From a virus: 22,221 nt of DNA. A model generated the notes under the pieces. It saw only the letters and a program-made list of their open reading frames with translations, was not told where the DNA came from and did no database searches. Made by a program: the position numbers and the translations under genes. The stretch is taken from positions 1-22,221 of IMG/VR virus record IMGVR_UViG_3300008262_000774; one strand, given 5' to 3'. Shown here one piece after another: positions 4,718 to 22,221 of this stretch (positions are counted from its first letter, which is position 1; every line of letters begins with the position of its first letter).

Positions 4718-5365
4718 ATGTTAGGTCATAATGTTTCTGATGAATTATTACAATTATTAGAAGTTGAGAAAAGATTAGAATTGACTCAACGAGAGGGAAA
4801 ACTTTTTAAAAGAGCAAATGATGAAAATACTGTAGCAGTATTATTGAAAAAAGATAATTCCGAAATATCTAAATTGACTTTAGAAGAAAGATCAGAAATG
4901 AATCACTCTAAAGTCATTTTCGTAACTATAGGGTCATCTAAAAACTTTTCAGAAGTTTTTATACCTAATAGATATTTTGAAGATTTTAGTTATGAGGGAA
5001 GACCTTTTATACATGGGATGTTTGATTGTTACACGTTAGTCAGAGATTATTATAAAAGAAAATTTAATATCTTTTTACCAACTAATATACAAAGAGATTG
5101 GGAGTGGTGGAATAAAGGAGAGAATCTTTATTTAGAAAATGCTAAAAATTGTTTATTCGAGGAAGTAGAAGATATTAAAAAGCATGATGTCTTACTTATG
5201 AAAATTAATAGTCCAGTACCAAATCATGCTGCAATTTATTTAGGGGAAGGAAAAATACTGCATCATATGGCTGGTAGATTTTCCACAATACAGAATTTAA
5301 CTTTTTCCTACAAACAAAAAATTTCAATAATTTATAGAAATAATTTATTAAAAAATGTCAACTAA
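4718..5365 (+). CDS. NlpC/P60 cysteine peptidase, lambda gpK-like tail protein
   Basis: 215 residues. The C-terminal half matches the NlpC/P60 domain of lambda tail protein gpK: RPFIHGMFDCYTLVRDYY with nucleophile Cys104, RDWEWWNKGENLY, then PVPNHAAIYLGEGKILHH with general-base His170 and a candidate third residue at His182 or His183, followed by GRFS. In gpK homologues the position before DVLLM is normally Gly; here it is His (HDVLLM). The ~85 N-terminal residues are charged and helical and lack the metal-binding His motif of the JAB/Mov34 domain that precedes NlpC/P60 in lambda gpK. The family cuts peptidoglycan peptides or works in tail-tip assembly. The gene starts two bases after the fibre gene and overlaps the next by 11 bases. 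T4 itself has no gpK. Confidence 0.85.
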   Translation: MLGHNVSDELLQLLEVEKRLELTQREGKLFKRANDENTVAVLLKKDNSEISKLTLEERSEMNHSKVIFVTIGSSKNFSEVFIPNRYFEDFSYEGRPFIHGMFDCYTLVRDYYKRKFNIFLPTNIQRDWEWWNKGENLYLENAKNCLFEEVEDIKKHDVLLMKINSPVPNHAAIYLGEGKILHHMAGRFSTIQNLTFSYKQKISIIYRNNLLKNVN

Positions 5366-14040: not shown

Positions 14041-14113
14041 AAGCTGATAATTATAAATAAATAGAAATTCAAAATTATAGAGATATATCTATAAAATTAT
14101 CAAGGAGAAGAAG
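14041..14113 (+). promoter_or_regulatory. Late promoter and leader for the tail sheath operon
   Basis: The gap between gp17 and gp18 contains TATAAATA at 14052-14059, the exact T4 late promoter element read by the sigma factor gp55 with the gp33 co-activator and gp45 clamp. Transcription would start a few bases after the element, leaving a ~45-base AT-rich leader with the short palindrome AGATATATCT. A strong ribosome site, AAGGAG at 14102-14107, precedes the gp18 ATG. It likely drives high expression of sheath, tube and downstream head genes. Whether this phage uses T4-type late transcription is inferred from the motif. Confidence 0.75.
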
Positions 14114-16648
14114 ATGGCATTTCAGCTTTCACCTGGCGTTTTAGTTACCGAAGAGGATAGAAGCACGGTAGTTCCTTCGGTCGCAACTACTGCTGGAGCA
14201 TTTTCGGGAGCCTTTGTATGGGGGCCTGTTGGGGAAGTAACTACCGTAGATTCTGAGGGTAAGTTAGTAGAGATTTTTGGTAAACCGAATGATACAACTG
14301 CGGGATATTTTTTCACTGCAGCAAACTTTTTGTCGTATGGAAATAATTTGCAAGTTGTACGCAATGTTAATAGGGCATGAAATACTGCAACAGGAAATGT
14401 AACACTTACAGCGGAAGGACGACTTCTTTCAGTTGACATTTCGGAGCCAGGGTTTGGATATAGTACTCCTCCTACCGTATCTTTAACAGGGTTGAGTCCA
14501 TCAGCGACAACTGCAGTTCTAGGTGGCGGAAGAGTTGAGGAGATTAATGTAGTAAATTCTGGTAACAACTATACTACACTATCTAATATCGTAATACAGA
14601 ATCAAGATTCTACTTTTGCAAGTGCAAACTTAGATGTGCATTTTAAATTAAGAGACATTCAAATTAGTAACGGTGGAACTAATTACGGCCCTGCTGAGAC
14701 AGGGTGTAACGTAGTTATCAGCGGAGGCATTTTAGTTCCAGGTGGAGCTCATGCAACAGCAACACCGATCGTCACAGGAAATGTAATTACTGGTTTTACT
14801 ATTACCAGCAGCGGCAATGGTTATATTAGTGCACCCAATGTCATCATCAATCGTTTAGATGGCAACACCGGAACAGAAGCAGTCCTTACTGCTAATTTAG
14901 GATATGGTATTATCAACAAAATTACTGTTCTAAACAAAGGTGCGGGCGGATATAATTTTACACCTAACGTCACTATCAATAGAAATAACAGTTTAGGTGG
15001 AACTGTTGCAACTGCTAATGTGAGAATTGCAGCGCCAATTAATACCATTACCGTTAATGGTAATGTTACTATTAACTATGTTCCAAATGTAACAATTATT
15101 CCTGCAGCTGGAGATTTGCAATATATTACAAGTAATGCTGCAGCGATTGCCTCTCTTGGGTATAGTATAGCAAGTGTTAACGTAATAAACCCTGGTTCGG
15201 GCTATGATGATGCCCCAACTGTCTCAATCACAAGCCCTTCCGGAAACGCAAGCGCGACCGCAAGTGTAGTATTTGATGTACCATTAATTGAAAACTTCGA
15301 TGATTGGTTATCCAATCATAGTACTGGTGGATTTAGTTACGGTACATTTGCTGCTAAATACCCAGGTACTTTAGGCAACGGAATTAGAGTTTCTATGGCG
15401 GATGTTGCCACATATGATGGCTGGACATTCGCAGGTCAATTCAATTCTGCTCCTCGAACATCTGCTAGCGTATCTGCAAAAGGTGGAACGGATGACGAAT
15501 TACATGTGATAGTTATTGACGCATTTGGTACATGGACAGGTTCTCCGGGGGCAGTGCTTGAGAAATTCTCATTTTTATCTAAAGCTCAGGATGCGAAAAA
15601 TTCGGACCAATCTACAAACTATTACAAGGATGTGATATCCAATCAATCTAAGTATATTTGGGTAATAGACCACCCATCTGATACGACGAATTGGGGTTCC
15701 AGTGGTGCAGTTAATTATGACACTCTTACTTCGGTTTCTAATAGGCTGTTATCTGGCGGGGTATCTTCAGATGGCATATCTACCGCAAATGTTTTAGATG
15801 GATATAGTCTGTTCGCTAATGATGAATTATATGATGTTTCGTTGATTCCTATGGGACCAACAACAATTGCTGCTGCAGTTAATCAGGTAATTAACATTGC
15901 TGAAACTAGAAGAGATTGTGTAGTATTCTCGTCTCCTCCATATACAGATGTTGTTAATACTACAGGTCAAGCTACAAAAATTACCACATACAGAGATACT
16001 TTAACAAGTTCCTCATTTGCTGTTCTTGATTCGGGATGGAAGTATCAGTACGATAGATATAATGACAAGTACAGATATGTTCCTCTGAATGGAGATGTTG
16101 CTGGTCTTTCCGCAAGAACAGACTATATTGCGGATCCTTGGTTCTCTCCTGCGGGATATAATCGCGGTGTAATTAAGAACGTAGTTAAATTGGCTTGGTC
16201 TCCATCAAAGAATGATAGAGATACTCTTTACAAGAAGGGTGTAAATCCTGTAGTAACATTCCCAGGACAAGGCACATTGTTATTTGGTGATAAGACTCTT
16301 CTAGCAAGACCAAGTGCTTTTGATAGAATCAACGTTCGCAGATTGTTTATTGTATTAGAGAAAGCAATTGCTACTGCATCGAAGTTCCAATTGTTCGAGT
16401 TTAATGATAGTTTCTCGCAGGCACAGTTTAGAAATCTAGTTGAGCCATTCTTAAGAGACGTACAGGGACGTCGAGGTATTACAGATTTCCGTGTAGTATG
16501 TGATGATACAAATAACACACCTGCAGTAATTGATCGCAATGAATTTGTTGCAGACATTTTCATTAAGCCTGCAAGAGCAATCAACTTTATCCAGTTGAAT
16601 TTTATTGCTACAAGATCTGGTGTGTCTTTCGAAGAAGTAGGCGCTTAA
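14114..16648 (+). CDS. 18: Tail sheath gp18 with repeat insertion, interrupted by one in-frame TGA
   Basis: One frame of 844 codons, against 659 residues in T4 gp18. The N-terminus (FQLSPGVLVTEEDRSTVVPS, then FFTAANFLSYGNNLQVVRNV) and C-terminus (NDSFSQAQFRNLVEPFLRDV, then RAINFIQLNFIATRSGVSF) are classic sheath. TGA at 14378-14380 stops translation after 88 codons, yet the frame continues sheath-like to 16648. By the usual pattern after VVRxV the lost residue is probably Arg (CGA or AGA). Codons ~100-385 hold six or seven glycine/tyrosine beta repeats absent from T4. Sheath core resumes near IENFDDWLSNHSTGG and AKYPGTLGNGIRVS. The TTG at 14492 is internal. The sheath contracts around gp19 during injection and is essential, so a true null would be lethal; see findings. 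Confidence 0.9.
14378..14380 (+). other. In-frame TGA in the sheath gene
   Basis: The context is GTT AAT AGG GCA TGA AAT ACT GCA. Both flanks are in the same frame and both are sheath-like, so this is a single stop and not a frameshift. One base change (from CGA, AGA or GGA) restores the gene. Nothing else here reads TGA as an amino acid: Trp is TGG throughout, and three other genes end in TGA. Confidence 0.85.
14411..15265 (+). repeat. Glycine/tyrosine beta-repeat array inserted in the sheath protein
   Basis: Six clear copies of a unit of the form (I/V)xxVxVxxxGxGYxxxPxVxI, with some divergence. Cores are VDISEPGFGYSTPPTVSL, INVVNSGNNYTTLSNIVI, IQISNGGTNYGPAETGCNVVI, FTITSSGNGYISAPNVII, ITVLNKGAGGYNFTPNVTI and VNVINPGSGYDDAPTVSI. 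A seventh, weaker copy (ITVNGNVTINYVPNVTII) lies near 15043-15096. Each is followed by an Ala/Thr-rich strand such as ASATASV. This unit is widespread in large marine phage and bacterial structural proteins, likely as small beta modules. Confidence 0.8.
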
Positions 16649-17271: not shown

Positions 17272-18804
17272 ATGGCCATTAAACTATTTGGTTTTACTAT
17301 TGCTCGTGAAGACGAGGATATTGATAAAAAGAATCAGGCGTTTGCCACGCCTGTTCCTGACGACGGTGCCACTACTATTCAAACCAGCGGATTTAATGCT
17401 GGAGGATATTTTGGTACCTATGTTGACATGGATGCCACTGCTAAATCTGAGGCAGAATTAATTACCAGATATAGAGAGGCATCCGCATATTCTGATTGTT
17501 CCGCAGCAGTAGATGAAATTGTCACTGAGGCAATTGCCGCGGTGGATGACGAACAACCGGTGCAAATTAATCTTGACAATGTAGATGTTGCTGATGATAT
17601 TAAAGAAACTATAGAAAATGAATTTGAGAAAATTCTGCAGCTCCTAGAATTTAATAATAAGGGCCATGACATTTTTAGAAGATGGTATATTGACGGAAGA
17701 ATATATTATCAAAAAGTAATTGATATGAAAAACCCTAAGCGTGGGGTTATGGAACTAATTCAATTAGATCCTAGAAAAATAAGAAAAATTAAAGAAGTAA
17801 AAAGAGAAAAAGATAAAGAAACTAATATAGATAAGATTAAATCTATAGAAGAATATTTTATCTATAATGATAAAGGGATTAATTACAATCCTAATTTTTC
17901 TTATTCTTCAACAGTAAACCAAGGATTAAGAATTTCCACAGACTCGATAGCATATGCGCCATCTGGGTTAATGGATTTAGAAAAGAATGTAGTTGTTGGG
18001 CATTTGCATAAAGCAATTAAGCCTGTAAATCAATTAAAGATGATGGAAGATGCGGTAGTCATTTATAGATTGGCTAGAGCACCCGAAAGAAGAATATTTT
18101 ATATTGATGTTGGTAATTTACCAAAGATTAAAGCCGAGCAGTATCTAAAAGATATTATGGCTCGCTATAGAAACAAGGTTGTTTACGACTCTAACACAGG
18201 TGAGATTAGAGACGATAGAAAATTTATGTCGATGCTTGAGGATTTTTGGTTACCGCGCAGAGAAGGTGGTAAAGGAACAGAAATTAGTACTTTGCCTGGT
18301 GGAGAAAGCTTAGGTCAAATTGATGATGTAAATTATTTTCAAAATAAATTATACCAGGCATTAAACGTTCCTGTTTCAAGAATGCAACCTCAGCAAGGCA
18401 TTTCTTTTGGTAGAGCAACTGAGATAACAAGAGACGAATTAAAATTTGCCAAGTTTGTGTCAAGACTTCGCAAAAAGTTTAACGTAATATTTGACGACAT
18501 TCTAAAAACTCAATTAGTTTTGAAGGGTGTTATAAATGAAAAAGACTGGGCAATTATTGGAGAAAAGATTCAATATAAGTATGCCCAGGATCAGTATTTT
18601 GAGGAAATGAAGGCTGCGGAAAATTATAGAAATCAAATCGATTTATTAAATTTAGCGCAACCATACGTAGGAATATATTTTAGTCAAAGATTTATTATGA
18701 AAAATGTTTTAAGAATGTCTGATAAAGATATTCAAACTATGAAGTCGGAGATAGAAAATGAACCACCTCCGCCTCAAATAAATACTGAGCAAACCGGACA
18801 ATAA
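17272..18804 (+). CDS. 20: Portal vertex protein gp20
   Basis: 510 residues, close to T4 gp20 (524). Recognisable portal segments are ASAYSDCSAAVDEIVTEAI, FEKILQLLEFNNKGHDIFRR, LARAPERRIFYIDVGNLPK, then EQYLKDIMARYRNKVVYDS, MLEDFWLPRREGGKGTEIST and ALNVPVSRMQPQQGISFGRA. The part from RAPERRIFYIDVG onward is the region used as the g20 marker in environmental surveys. The protein forms the dodecameric ring that starts prohead assembly, docks terminase and later binds the neck. It follows gp19 after 20 bases with no strong Shine-Dalgarno site; the proline-rich tail (NEPPPPQINTEQTGQ) is complete. Confidence 0.96.
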   Translation: MAIKLFGFTIAREDEDIDKKNQAFATPVPDDGATTIQTSGFNAGGYFGTYVDMDATAKSEAELITRYREASAYSDCSAAVDEIVTEAIAAVDDEQPVQINLDNVDVADDIKETIENEFEKILQLLEFNNKGHDIFRRWYIDGRIYYQKVIDMKNPKRGVMELIQLDPRKIRKIKEVKREKDKETNIDKIKSIEEYFIYNDKGINYNPNFSYSSTVNQGLRISTDSIAYAPSGLMDLEKNVVVGHLHKAIKPVNQLKMMEDAVVIYRLARAPERRIFYIDVGNLPKIKAEQYLKDIMARYRNKVVYDSNTGEIRDDRKFMSMLEDFWLPRREGGKGTEISTLPGGESLGQIDDVNYFQNKLYQALNVPVSRMQPQQGISFGRATEITRDELKFAKFVSRLRKKFNVIFDDILKTQLVLKGVINEKDWAIIGEKIQYKYAQDQYFEEMKAAENYRNQIDLLNLAQPYVGIYFSQRFIMKNVLRMSDKDIQTMKSEIENEPPPPQINTEQTGQ

Positions 18805-18813
18805 GGAGTTATA

Positions 18814-19113
18814 GTGGATAATCCAATTAGAAACATGGTAGATAATATTCTAGCAAACAAAGAAGCAGAAGCCTTGGGTAATTTTGAAGCTGCGATTGCG
18901 GATAAAATGAATGACGCCTTAGAAATTAGAAAGCAGGAAGTTGCTTCAAGCCTAGGTGAATCGAATCTAACAGACAAGATTAATAAGGTTGCAGAATTTA
19001 TAGGTGACCTTGTTACAGGTGAGGCCGGTAGAAAAGCCGCAGAAAAAATGAACCAAAAGAAAGATGATAAGCAGCCTGCACAACCAACTCAACAACCTGC
19101 AAAAAGCCAATGA
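18814..19113 (+). CDS. Small prohead core protein, gp67-like
   Basis: 99 residues from a GTG start at 18814, chosen because AAGGAG (18803-18808) sits just upstream and no ATG fits. It lies directly after the portal gene, where T4 has gene 67. The N-terminal half is an amphipathic helix (MVDNILANKEAEALGNFEAA, then MNDALEIRKQEVASSLGESN). The DALxxxKxEVA motif recurs in prohead core proteins of T4-like phages. The C-terminus is Lys/Gln/Pro-rich and disordered-looking. It contains one L-x-E site (LGE), so the gp21 protease may cut it. It ends in ATGA overlapping the next start. The gp67 call rests on position and the helix motif. Confidence 0.7.
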   Translation: MDNPIRNMVDNILANKEAEALGNFEAAIADKMNDALEIRKQEVASSLGESNLTDKINKVAEFIGDLVTGEAGRKAAEKMNQKKDDKQPAQPTQQPAKSQ

Positions 19114-21365
19114 AATCATTTAATCGTTTAAGAGAAGAATCGCTGGAAGAAAAGTTAAAAGCATCTGATCCTACAGGAAAATGGATCAGCGATTTTGTTC
19201 ATAGCGATAATCCTAAATTTGCCGGCAAGAGCAAAAAAGAACGTATTCGTATGGCACTTGGTGCATCTTATGCTGCCAAACGACAGAACGAAGATAACAA
19301 TCACATTGTAGAAGCAACACATCGCATTGGTTTAACAGTTACCGACCCTAACCATCCTATGGTCAGCAAGCGCAAAGAAACCATACAGAAGACTGTGCGT
19401 ATGCCAGGTGAGGATCGAGAAAATGCCATCAAACGTGCCATTGCTCATTATCGTCGCAAGGGCTACAAGGTACATGATCATCACTACATTGGTACTGTGA
19501 ATGAAGAAGTTGAACTTATTGAAAAATATACTGAAAACGATATTGCCAATGGCGGTACAGTTATATACAAGCACCAAGGCAAACATTATATGAGCAAGGT
19601 GTCGCATAAAACCGGTGCTGGCGCTGGTACTAAAATTCATACTACATCTGCTCTGGGTCATGTTGTGCCTCTGCACCACGTAGTTTCAACAGATGCATCT
19701 GATTGGAACACTTATAAGAACAGACCTGTAAAAGAAGAAGTTGAACAGATTGATGAGTTAAAAAGATCTACTTTAGCTAGTTATGCCAACAAAGCAGAAA
19801 AATCATATCATTCAACTAGCGATGCTAAAACTAAAGCTAAGCGCGATGTTGGATTAGATAGAGCTGATAGAAAAATAGAAAAGAAAGATAATGCTAAAAA
19901 TCCATTTAATGAAAATATAGAACAAATTGACGAGTTAAAAAGATCTACTCTCGCTAGTTATGCGGGTAAAGCAAGTAAAGAGGTTGCCAAATCTCAAAGC
20001 TATGCGGCCAAATTTAAAAAAGATTCAGAATTTGAAAGAGACGTTGGGCATCCTTCCAGAGCTCGTGTATTAGATAAAGAAAGAGATGTAGAATTAAAGC
20101 ATGCAAAGAAAAGACAAGCTGGCTTTGATAAAGCTCTGACTCGTTTAGCTAAGGAAGAGTCAGAGCATATACAAGAGGGCGGTTTTGATATTCCAGAAAT
20201 TCCAAGAGCACCGACCCCAAAGCCTGCACCAAAAGATAAAAATAAAATTGCTGAGGGTTCAACACAAGACAAGTTATATCAACAGCATCAAGCTATTCGC
20301 ACTGCTAACAAAAGACCAAATCCTGAATATTATAAAGAGCTCGGAATGGCATATGATATTAAGGATGACAAAGAAAGAATGGCGAAACAAGCTGAAATTA
20401 AAAAGAAATATAAAGTAGAAGGCGCTCAATTAGATCAGTTAAAGACTATGCGAGATGATCCTAAGTGGCAAGAAAATCCTGAGCATAAAGCACAATTAGA
20501 TAAACGATTTAAGATGGCTAAGGATAGAGCAGACTTAGACAAAGGCGAGGTTGTAGATCCTGCAGGTAAACCTGTACCCGTTCTTACTCCTGATAAGTTT
20601 AAAGAGAAAAATCCTAACTTTATGAAAGAGGAAGGTGATTATCCTCATCAGGGAGTTGGAGTGAGTAGAAGTATGCAAATGGCTGCGGACATTGCTCGCC
20701 AAAAAGCAAGAACTTCTATGATGCAATCCAAATATGGGAACGAGTTTCAGGATAAAGCAATTCCGGATTATGATGAAGATAAGATGGATTTAAAACCTGG
20801 AACCGCACCTGGTACATATCAGGCTACAGTTAGAATGAGAGAAAGAATGAAACAAGAAAGTTTCTCTTCTCTTAGAAATAAAATTGCTGAAGCTAAAAAA
20901 ATGAAAGGTGAAGATCCTTGTTGGGATGACTACAAAATGATCGGAACCAAAACGAAAAATGGTAGAGAAGTTCCTAATTGTGTCCCGAAGGAAAGTGTAG
21001 CTGAAGGTAAAGAAGAACAAGAATATGATTATGAGGGAGACATGGCAATGTCTGATTTGCGTTCAATTTTACACAACGCAAAAACAGTACATGATATGTT
21101 AGAACCAAACACAAATATTCCTGAGTGGTGCCAGTCTAAAATTACTTTAGCAGAGGATTATATTTCGACCGTGGCAAATTATATGAGAGGTGAGATGACC
21201 GAGGAAGCTATTCTTGAGGCATCTAAACCTGGACTATATGCAAATATTCATGCTAAGAGAAAAAGAATAGCAAAGGGATCCGGTGAGCGTATGAGAAAAC
21301 CTGGTACCAAAGGAGCTCCTACTGCACAAGCATTTAAAGACTCAGCAAAGACAGCTAAAAAATAA
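19110..21365 (+). CDS. Large modular prohead core or internal head protein, candidate gp21-cleaved polyprotein
   Basis: 751 residues, highly charged, with no membrane segments. It occupies the place of T4 gene 68. It is a string of short modules that recur separately in T4-like phages: GKWISDFVHSDNPKFAGKSK (res ~23-42); HRIGLTVTDPNHPMVSKRKE (71-90) with YRRKGYKVHDHHYIG; a YKHQGKHYMSKVSHKTGAGA domain (153-172); two copies of EQIDELKRSTLASYA (212-226, 271-285); a Pro-rich linker (~361-375); a long helical middle; GEDPCWDDYKMIGTKTKNGR (600-619); a helical unit with PEWCQSKITLAEDYISTVAN (671-690); and a basic tail with KPGLYANIHAKRKRI (706-720). [L/I]-x-E motifs lie at most junctions. It overlaps the previous gene by four bases (ATGA). 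Scaffold and DNA-binding roles are inferred. Confidence 0.75.
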   Translation: MKSFNRLREESLEEKLKASDPTGKWISDFVHSDNPKFAGKSKKERIRMALGASYAAKRQNEDNNHIVEATHRIGLTVTDPNHPMVSKRKETIQKTVRMPGEDRENAIKRAIAHYRRKGYKVHDHHYIGTVNEEVELIEKYTENDIANGGTVIYKHQGKHYMSKVSHKTGAGAGTKIHTTSALGHVVPLHHVVSTDASDWNTYKNRPVKEEVEQIDELKRSTLASYANKAEKSYHSTSDAKTKAKRDVGLDRADRKIEKKDNAKNPFNENIEQIDELKRSTLASYAGKASKEVAKSQSYAAKFKKDSEFERDVGHPSRARVLDKERDVELKHAKKRQAGFDKALTRLAKEESEHIQEGGFDIPEIPRAPTPKPAPKDKNKIAEGSTQDKLYQQHQAIRTANKRPNPEYYKELGMAYDIKDDKERMAKQAEIKKKYKVEGAQLDQLKTMRDDPKWQENPEHKAQLDKRFKMAKDRADLDKGEVVDPAGKPVPVLTPDKFKEKNPNFMKEEGDYPHQGVGVSRSMQMAADIARQKARTSMMQSKYGNEFQDKAIPDYDEDKMDLKPGTAPGTYQATVRMRERMKQESFSSLRNKIAEAKKMKGEDPCWDDYKMIGTKTKNGREVPNCVPKESVAEGKEEQEYDYEGDMAMSDLRSILHNAKTVHDMLEPNTNIPEWCQSKITLAEDYISTVANYMRGEMTEEAILEASKPGLYANIHAKRKRIAKGSGERMRKPGTKGAPTAQAFKDSAKTAKK
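19743..19974 (+). repeat. Internal repeat pair in the core protein gene
   Basis: Two copies, about 19743-19797 and 19920-19974, encode EQIDELKRSTLASYANKA and EQIDELKRSTLASYAGKA. They are nearly identical in protein and share the stretch GAGTTAAAAAGATCTACT, with silent changes elsewhere. This points to duplication of one module followed by drift. Each contains an I-D-E site. Confidence 0.85.
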
Positions 21366-21374
21366 GAGGTAATT

Positions 21375-21758
21375 ATGCCAGTAGTTAAAACAGTTCTTAA
21401 GAAAGTTAGGCAGCAAGCCGGTATTAAATTAATCGGTGACGGTACTGCTACTATTACTTCTTTGGATTTAAAATTAGCAGATGAAACTGTAGATCAACCT
21501 AATGTGAAGATAACAGTTACTGGCGCGATGTGGACTGCTCCAGGGCCGGTGCCAATTATTATGACACGAGATGGTGTTGTTACTCAATACTTCAACGGCA
21601 ATGATAATTGGTCAATGACTCAGACATTAGGATTTCCTGATACTGCAAATGCCAGTGCAAATATTTCAGTTGCGATGCCTGCAAACTCTATGATTTACTT
21701 ACACCTAACTAAGTTAGATGGATTTGACGAACCGAATCAACAAATTTTACCTAGGTAA
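21375..21758 (+). CDS. Conserved small protein between core and protease genes, function unknown
   Basis: 127 residues, with AAGAGGT (21364-21370) just upstream of the ATG. The opening VVKTVLKKVRQQAGIKLIGD, then GTATITSLDLKLADETVDQP, and a middle with YFNGNDNWSMTQTLGFPDTA match by memory a family found beside gene 21 in several environmental T4-like phages. It looks like a beta-sandwich and has no Cys, membrane segment or enzyme motif. Its place among prohead genes suggests a capsid, decoration or core role, but no function is established. Confidence 0.65.
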   Translation: MPVVKTVLKKVRQQAGIKLIGDGTATITSLDLKLADETVDQPNVKITVTGAMWTAPGPVPIIMTRDGVVTQYFNGNDNWSMTQTLGFPDTANASANISVAMPANSMIYLHLTKLDGFDEPNQQILPR

Positions 21759-21763
21759 GAACT

Positions 21764-22221
21764 ATGAAACTAATTAAAGAAACGGCGCATGAATTAAAAT
21801 ATCTTGTCGAAGAAAATAAAAACGGCGGCAAGAATGTTTTTATCGAAGGTATTTTTGCCCAATCAGATAAAAAAAATAAAAATAACAGAACTTACGGCAA
21901 ATCTATTATGGAGCGTGAGGTAGAAAAGTACCAAGAGCTTATCGGTCAAAAGAGATCGTTAGGTGAATTGGGACACCCTGATAATCCATCTATTAACCTA
22001 CACCAGGTATCACATCTAATTACTTCTCTAAACATGGAAGGTAACGATGTAATTGGTAGAGCTAAAATTTTAGAAACACCTATGGGAACCATCGCAAAGA
22101 ACTTAATTGAGAATGGTGTACAATTGGGTGTATCTACTAGAGGTTTGGGTTCGTTAAAAATGAACTCGGAGGGCGTCAACGAAGTGCAGGATGATTTTCA
22201 TCTAGCAACCGTTGATATTGT
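21764..22221 (+). CDS. 21: Prohead core protease gp21, 5' part (cut by window end)
   Basis: The frame is open from ATG 21764 to the window end, giving 152 codons with no stop. Conserved segments are NVFIEGIFAQSDKKNKNNRT (24-43), SLGELGHPDNPSINL with catalytic His71, and GVQLGVSTRGLGSL with catalytic Ser124, as in the S77-type (T4 gp21) serine protease family. The last residues, HLATVDI, lead into the region that normally supplies the remaining catalytic residue. The enzyme sits inside the prohead, cuts core and capsid proteins after (L/I)-x-E, then degrades itself. Its presence beside the [L/I]-x-E-rich core protein is central to the polyprotein idea. The ribosome site is weak (GGTAAGA). Confidence 0.93.
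   Translation, partial: MKLIKETAHELKYLVEENKNGGKNVFIEGIFAQSDKKNKNNRTYGKSIMEREVEKYQELIGQKRSLGELGHPDNPSINLHQVSHLITSLNMEGNDVIGRAKILETPMGTIAKNLIENGVQLGVSTRGLGSLKMNSEGVNEVQDDFHLATVDI

Follow-up and report, generated by a model that had tools for sequence, protein, structure and literature searches.

IMG/VR virus record IMGVR_UViG_3300008262_000774, whose positions 1 to 22,221 form the window analyzed here, comes from a T4-like phage; its portal protein gp20 and the one from Pelagibacter phage Mosig share 54% identity. Next to the head genes it carries an open reading frame (ORF) of 751 amino acids (aa), P0001 (19110..21365, plus strand), which probably encodes a modular prohead-core polyprotein that is processed by the prohead protease gp21 into about 12 peptides. 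This reading draws on the order of the genes, the modular build of the protein, a [LIVM]xE motif at the module junctions, and homologues of several modules that stand free or begin other ORFs. A first-pass annotation had proposed a polyprotein cleaved at strict [L/I]-x-E sites. Modules joined at gp21-like sites, encoded beside gp21, do occur in many related phages, but the strict form of the motif and its universality did not hold.

P0001 lies between gp20 and gp21, the slot of the T4 prohead core genes; in T4 itself, gp67 and gp68 are found between these two genes. An identical copy (100%) occurs in a 126-kb contig of the same phage (L001), in the order gp20, 99-aa ORF, 751-aa ORF, 127-aa ORF, gp21, gp22, and gp23. 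There gp21 belongs to protease family S77 (PF03420, 2.2e-35), gp22 matches T4_CASP (3.1e-62), and gp23 is recognized at 1e-140; the S77 protease of the same phage is thus encoded two genes downstream of the 751-aa ORF (L001:6655-7305). This protease type cuts after L/I-x-E; it breaks up the core proteins of T4, and most of the resulting pieces do not stay in the head (PMC9026906; PMC5694885). No domain of P0001 reaches the cut-off in a Pfam scan, and its seven PHROG matches are all of unknown function. None of the Pfam or PHROG matches is named gp67 or gp68, the T4 proteins themselves not having been compared directly.

Relatives were collected from IMG/VR as 14 loci for the whole protein and the best 80 loci for each of three modules, called CW, GLY, and YDY. 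Module counts refer to the loci selected in this way. Repeated contexts and duplicates of the window phage (L002-L004, L015, and L189) were left out of the counts. All ten sites listed in the first-pass annotation, and two more that it expected to be spared, are present at the residues it gave. It had missed two [LI]xE sites, LRE 7-9 and IPE 361-363, and had not listed MKE 505-507, a supported junction whose counterpart in the relatives L005-L008 is followed by a different module.

The protein, with all coordinates on the plus strand, starts with a putative propeptide (residues 1-14, 19110..19151) that resembles a T4 capsid targeting sequence (CTS) and has candidate cuts after LRE 7-9 and/or LEE 12-14; [LI]xE is kept at both places in L005-L008. 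Module 15-68 (19152..19313), ending in IVE 66-68, is retained in L005 and L007 while its successor differs, and the junction behind it is also [LIV]xE in L005, L007, and L008. Module 69-138 (19314..19523), ending in LIE 136-138, recurs in other surroundings in L008 and L018, and module 139-216 (19524..19757), ending in IDE 214-216, recurs in L009-L012, flanked by ISE and LDE ends and then followed by another module. Next come two copies of an IDELKRSTL-type module, recognized by repeat alignment: residues 217-275 (19758..19934), ending in IDE 273-275, and residues 276-356 (19935..20177), ending in IQE 354-356, a site at which the ends of 23 homology segments cluster (median, residue 356). The description of these repeats as near-identical applies to about their first 17 residues (15/17 aa) but not beyond them; residues 206-235 and 265-294 match at 20/30 aa, with synonymous changes present. 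A Pro-rich segment, 357-382 (20178..20255), runs from this IQE to IAE 380-382 and is present, among five aligned proteins, in the window phage only, the flanking modules being joined by a single IEE in L005-L008.

In the second half of the protein, module 383-507 (20256..20630), ending in MKE 505-507, has ORF-initial homologues, and module 508-594 (20631..20891), ending in IAE 592-594, is delimited by relatives and breakpoints. The CW module (595-632, 20892..21005; CWxxYxxxGTKxKxGxxVPNCVP) ends in VAE 630-632 and matches 222 phage records. The YDY module (633-703, 21006..21218), a predicted helical hairpin, ends in ILE 701-703 and contains IPE 670-672 and LAE 680-682, which had rightly been placed inside a module. 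The GLY module (704-751, 21219..21362; phrog_16028, 6.1e-26) forms the C-terminus and is, as first described, very basic: its 48 aa include 14 K/R and 2 D/E, with an isoelectric point of 11.2.

The modules differ between close relatives. L005-L007 share 90-92% identity with the window phage in gp20 and 87-89% in gp21, and their module sets between these genes are different. The first module is shared to about residue 58, after which three different modules follow across four phages; the junction reads IVE in the window, LEE in L005, IDE in L007, and VDE in L008, and the module after it is of the same type in the window and L008. The YDY module is not found at its window position in L005-L008, where a short linker containing VPE and LEE connects CW with the basic module and YDY is placed after the MKE corresponding to residues 505-507.

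A modular ORF and a T4 head gene occur together in the fetched stretch of 29 loci. The ORF is bracketed by homologues of gp20 and gp21 in L005-L007, L010-L012, L036, L042, and L258; it follows gp20, with gp21 beyond the fetched stretch, in L008, L009, L221, L248, L250, and L252, and it occupies other places in the head cluster elsewhere, for example between gp21 and gp23 in L070, L074, and L089. In L042 (3831-5963), an ORF between diverged gp20 and gp21 homologues holds three tandem copies of a domain of ~60 aa; the copies end at or close to VTE followed by A, IYE followed by E, and INE, respectively. A CW module was also seen near the N-terminus of gp36 of the haloarchaeal tailed virus HRTV-29 (L019:4842-6398), encoded between portal and capsid genes; this protein has only two [LI]xE in 518 aa.

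The motif is concentrated at module junctions. Across 38 breakpoint clusters in the 751-aa protein, the mean distance to the nearest [LIVM]xE is 12.6 aa against 16.9 aa after rotation (as small in 0/710 rotations), and to strict [LI]xE 21.8 against 28.5 aa (3.1% of rotations). Five of six control motifs had no effect in this test, the exception being E-x-[LIVM], whose pattern overlaps with the linker consensus and which likewise occurs near the breakpoints (0.14%). In 11 proteins from the slot, the end of a [LIVM]xE is no more than 5 aa away from 74/159 homology edges, compared with 24% after rotation (0/1000), while [LIVM]xD (15/159) and [LIVM]xK (41/159) stay at background. The first-pass annotation had suggested aligning homologues to see whether [L/I]-x-E is enriched at module edges, and it is, against a rotated rather than a shuffled background (38/159 versus 14%). 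Over 175 non-redundant modular ORFs, [LIVM]xE reaches 0.21 per 4-aa bin at left edges and ~0.08 far away; [LIVM]xD is flat at ~0.04, and [LIVM]xxE reaches 0.13 against ~0.05.

To allow for common descent, the sequence upstream of each fused module was clustered into independent contexts; the module hidden Markov models came from the same loci in which copies were counted. As a mean share per context, the motif stands before YDY in 75% (33 contexts), before GLY in 67% (27), and before CW in 43% (58), whereas randomly chosen positions in these ORFs give 19%, 12%, and 17% (each p<0.0005). V/I-x-E-A is the commonest YDY junction. Most junctions are covered only when the L/I-x-E of the first-pass annotation is widened to [LIVM]xE, V being very common at P3, the first motif position. 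Raw counts are modest evidence. The protein holds 13 [LI]xE against a shuffled mean of 5.87 (reached by 0.35% of 20,000 shuffles), and [LI]..E pairs tested at spacings 0-7 peak at spacing 1; however, [LI]xE exceeds its shuffled rate 1.59-fold in modular ORFs and also 1.30-fold in 548 non-modular ORFs of the same loci, some of which may be unrecognized modular ORFs. With this background, ~7.6 would be expected in 751 aa.

Several modules also exist outside chains. The basic module matches 123 phage records, and in Pelagibacter phage HTVC120P it forms a separate 48-aa ORF (gp28), with the scaffold gene on one side and the capsid gene on the other; HTVC120P and S-RIP2 belong, by their records, to the Autographiviridae. 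Non-redundant copies that start within 12 aa of an ORF start number 60/105 for GLY, 15/90 for YDY, and 10/108 for CW, with start codons assigned mechanically, and the module at 384-444 starts at residue 2 of ORFs in L225, L233, and L249 (residue 2 aligning with 384). ORFs therefore start at or near several of the proposed cuts. That the free GLY modules come from T7-like phages only was considered and dropped, a T7-type connector (PF12236) being present in 1/11 contigs of the GLY scan.

An AlphaFold2 (AF2) model of the YDY module, built on 57 aligned sequences, is a helical hairpin with a mean predicted local distance difference test (pLDDT) score of 89.7, module residues 11-60 reaching 95-98. 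The first four residues after VAE score below 50. IPE 670-672 is predicted at the start of the second helix and LAE 680-682 within it, and given this confident hairpin both sites may be protected from cutting. When the hairpin was searched with Foldseek, PDB gave no match and the lowest E-value in BFVD was not under 2.9. For the whole 751-aa protein, the AF2 model (5 aligned sequences, mean pLDDT 44.7) was too poor and was not used.

A number of observations weigh against processing as proposed here. Some concern the specificity of the motif. The reverse order E....[LI] gives 15 occurrences at spacing 4 in the 751-aa protein. At the 159 edges, strict [LI]xE gives a weaker signal than [LIVM]xE does (38/159, rotated 14%, p 0.001), and it is found at 24% of YDY junctions versus 11% elsewhere in the same ORFs. 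[LIVM]xxE (38/159, rotated 12%) and [AST]xE (34/159, rotated 13%) are also raised at the edges, so that part of the signal comes from E-rich linkers. Junctions without the motif had been named as a finding that would refute the polyprotein; some fusions do lack it, including 9/34 GLY fusions, a count from which five Met-preceded fusions were set aside. The YDY fold adds to these points. IPE-type sites in 57/57 and LAE-type sites in 45/57 aligned modules are kept inside the predicted fold and are therefore probably part of it, which means that the motif alone does not equal a cut. ILE 701-703, in turn, falls in a short predicted helix, with residues 693-702 at a pLDDT of about 91 in a region to which few aligned sequences extend; as the C-terminal end of YDY is not floppy, floppy ends do not explain everything.

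The remaining objections concern the protease. S77 was found in 16/50 of the contigs first searched, including 11/14 of those of at least 100 kb but 0/11 of those from the GLY scan, and in none of 41 other contigs, all below 40 kb. A search for the T4 portal succeeded in 2/44 contigs, and the junction motif is similarly frequent where S77 was not found (18/27) and where it was (11/15). Many of these contigs are probably fragments, so the absences weigh little; even so, processing in some phages may rely on a different protease or may not take place. A total of nine gp23 N-termini (7 distinct) were read; of 16 fetched loci, 7 gave a readable one (three identical) and 9 gave none by script. By eye, all nine have L-x-E in the processing region (LFE in the window phage) and none has V or M at P3, which makes V/M at this position a putative extension beyond the T4 L/I rule.

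These data suggest how the protein may be targeted and cut, by which protease, and what may become of its peptides. The N-terminal CTS-like peptide would carry the polyprotein into the prohead, and during head maturation gp21 (family S77) would cut after Glu in the [LIVM]-x-E linkers, freeing about 12 peptides of 14-125 aa. Each module would act as a unit of its own, with phages exchanging, acquiring, and dropping modules at the linkers. Some peptides, such as the basic C-terminal one, would probably be retained with the DNA or delivered, while others may be cleared.

A CTS-like start, defined as M[KR]-x-[FY]...[LIVFM]-x-E, is present in 19/166 modular ORFs, including P0001, and in 8/548 controls, at least two of which resemble nicotinamide mononucleotide adenylyltransferase (NMNAT) by eye. 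The cytidylyltransferase/NMNAT-like proteins S-CREM2 ORF154 and S-SZBM1_140 also have such starts and are listed in virion proteomes (PMC9146016; PMC10665884). ORF154 follows the T4 CTS layout, in which residues 4 and 7 serve targeting and residues 8 and 10 serve processing (PMC9026906); the S-SZBM1_140 start is one residue shorter. In T4, an Asp at position 10 of the CTS inhibits processing (PMC9026906). At L283:10390-11478 and L284:1109-1969, the CTS-like peptides of NMNAT/cytidylyltransferase-like virion proteins end in I-x-E or L-x-E followed by A. Judged from these sequences, CTS-like peptides may explain how such proteins enter the head. For S-SCSM1, an NMNAT has been reported from the virion, although the authors warn that it may be a leftover of the preparation (PMC9602691).

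Whether the peptides do anything after the core has been built separates the proposed polyprotein from its closest competitor, a less likely one, according to which gp21 cuts the chain but, as for T4 gp22, gp67, and gp68, the pieces have no role other than to form the prohead core before they are removed, with nothing delivered and with module turnover reflecting loose scaffold constraints. The slot between gp20 and gp21 suits this explanation, as does the failure of any domain of the 751-aa protein to reach the Pfam cut-off. Virion mass spectrometry tables, however, list S-SZBM1_139, which shares CW-region PHROGs with the 751-aa protein (10.5% coverage; a figure of 4 is taken as peptides), and S-CREM2 ORF160, which is modular by eye (7 unique peptides, 13.1%) (PMC9146016; PMC10665884). 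Recognizable domains also sit among the modules of relatives: in 61 of the 175 modular ORFs, chosen by strand and length, Pfam identified 7 CTP_transf_like, 4 HicA_toxin, 2 Zeta_toxin, 1 NUDIX, and 1 LPD23. A HicA_toxin domain (PF07927, 1.1e-11) lies between LDE and INE at residues 298-349 of the modular ORF L013:2464-4128, similar stretches occur in L191 and L192, and a HicA-like stretch was seen by eye between LDE and LAE in the gp20-gp21 slot of L036. The same scan gave 2 phage portal, 1 XkdF protease, and 1 DUF2213 matches, so not every modular ORF is a T4-type core gene. The basic module is free in HTVC120P and near ORF starts in 60/105 copies, and the GLY-scan contigs lack a detected S77 (0/11), which also weighs against a disposable core.

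Less probable still is a chain that stays uncut, in which E-x-[LIV]-x-E is a repeated docking motif (for example for gp22 or gp23) or an acidic flexible linker. E.[LIVM].E is enriched 3.0-fold in modular ORFs, yet also 2.0-fold in controls; the [LI]xE sites kept inside the predicted YDY fold and the E-rich control motifs raised at edges point the same way. Against it, modules start where the motif ends, and the next residue is frequently A, G, or S, which would suit a protease site ([LIVM]xE[AGS] is at 2.04 times its shuffled rate in modular ORFs and 1.36 times in controls), ORF-initial homologues begin at or near the same place, and the gp21 gene adjoins.

A third explanation, that the junction is conserved DNA used for module recombination and the peptide motif a by-product, takes support from the clear shuffling of modules at junctions but is very improbable: at 40 YDY junctions, conservation of third codon positions does not exceed background (Glu 0.78 versus 0.81 elsewhere in the ORFs; Val, n 17, 0.41 versus 0.53; Ala, n 24, 0.63 versus 0.49, at the upper 95% limit), and selection therefore appears to act on the amino acids. 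That Glu-rich, Ile/Leu-containing sequence yields the motif by accident is scarcely credible, since the 1.30-fold enrichment in ordinary ORFs and the 3.1% of the strict-motif test for this one protein are outweighed by 0/1000 rotations in the 11-protein set with [LIVM]xD and [LIVM]xK flat and by p<0.0005 in three module sets of independent contexts, tests that refute chance for the family.

The proposed gp21-cut polyprotein has partial counterparts among known systems. It shares with T4 gp22, gp67, and gp68 a core-type gene beside gp21, several L/I-x-E sites, and the fragmentation of a core protein into peptides, which for the 751-aa protein is deduced (PMC9026906; PMC5694885), and differs in being long, with interchangeable modules that have homologues elsewhere and vary in content between near relatives. 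The T4 internal proteins and Alt also have a CTS-like N-terminus ending in a gp21-like site (PMC9026906), whereas here one targeting peptide would import many modules that are separated later. The giant phages phiKZ and SPN3US have a gp21-type protease (gp175/gp245) and some head proteins with more than one site, but these lose propeptides from larger mature proteins, and the available part of the account describes no modular chain of short peptides (PMC5694885). Polyvalent proteins, which have been explicitly compared with RNA-virus polyproteins, likewise combine many domains per phage protein in mosaic architectures; their domains are larger and globular, and release is ascribed to embedded peptidases (PMC5512222). 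In the modular ORFs, by contrast, most modules are shorter than 100 aa, and gp21, the candidate protease, is a protein of its own. P0001 has no known effector domain of the polyvalent type and no peptidase at the Pfam cut-off; some relatives have single known domains, and the polyvalent-protein domain LPD23 was in 1 of the 61 ORFs scanned. The term 'polyprotein' is not used in the available part of a jumbo-phage survey (PMC7824862). No description of a modular polyprotein cut by gp21 was found in the open-access literature, subscription papers and preprints lying outside the scope, and the modular chain is best read as a variation on T4 core-protein processing.

The genes around P0001 are all on the plus strand. 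The gp20 portal gene (17272..18804; PF07230, E=2.8e-178) is followed by the 99-aa ORF (18814..19113), which has weak Pfam and PHROG matches (DUF7216/phrog_683-like) and presumably occupies the position of T4 gp67; homologues follow gp20 in L005-L008, L221, L248, L250, L252, and L258. On the other side, the 127-aa ORF (21375..21758) has zero Pfam/PHROG matches. Its homologue lies 3' of the modular ORF in L005-L007, L010-L012, L036, L221, and L258 and was not detected in L042. The 5' part of gp21 (21764..22221) runs off the window; the complete copy is that of L001. Elsewhere, an ORF at 4718-5365, 5' of the terminase gene, has an NlpC/P60 hydrolase domain (2.1e-11). The tail-sheath gene contains an in-frame TGA at 14378-14380, at a site where 117 bases are missing relative to another contig of the same phage, either a natural variant or an assembly artefact. 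A scan for T4-type late promoters gave one exact TATAAATA, at 14052, which is below chance expectation.

Beyond this one protein, it is possible, though the wider claim is more tentative than that for P0001, that aquatic T4-like phages use one CTS to load a chain of swappable modules, which gp21 separates in the capsid and which are then kept or ejected with the DNA. The cargo in such a system would comprise basic DNA-binding-like peptides, HicA-like, NMNAT-like, and NUDIX modules, and many unknown domains, and new cargo would be gained by inserting a module between two [LIVM]xE linkers. If so, the failure of normal annotation would be explained, as these ORFs would be chains of unrelated pieces, and many 'hypothetical' modules of aquatic phages would become testable capsid cargo with predictable N- and C-termini. 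Processing by gp21 would then be a release mechanism for multi-protein delivery as well as a means of clearing the core, and the natural module chain would hint at how one gene can load unrelated peptides into a T4-type head.

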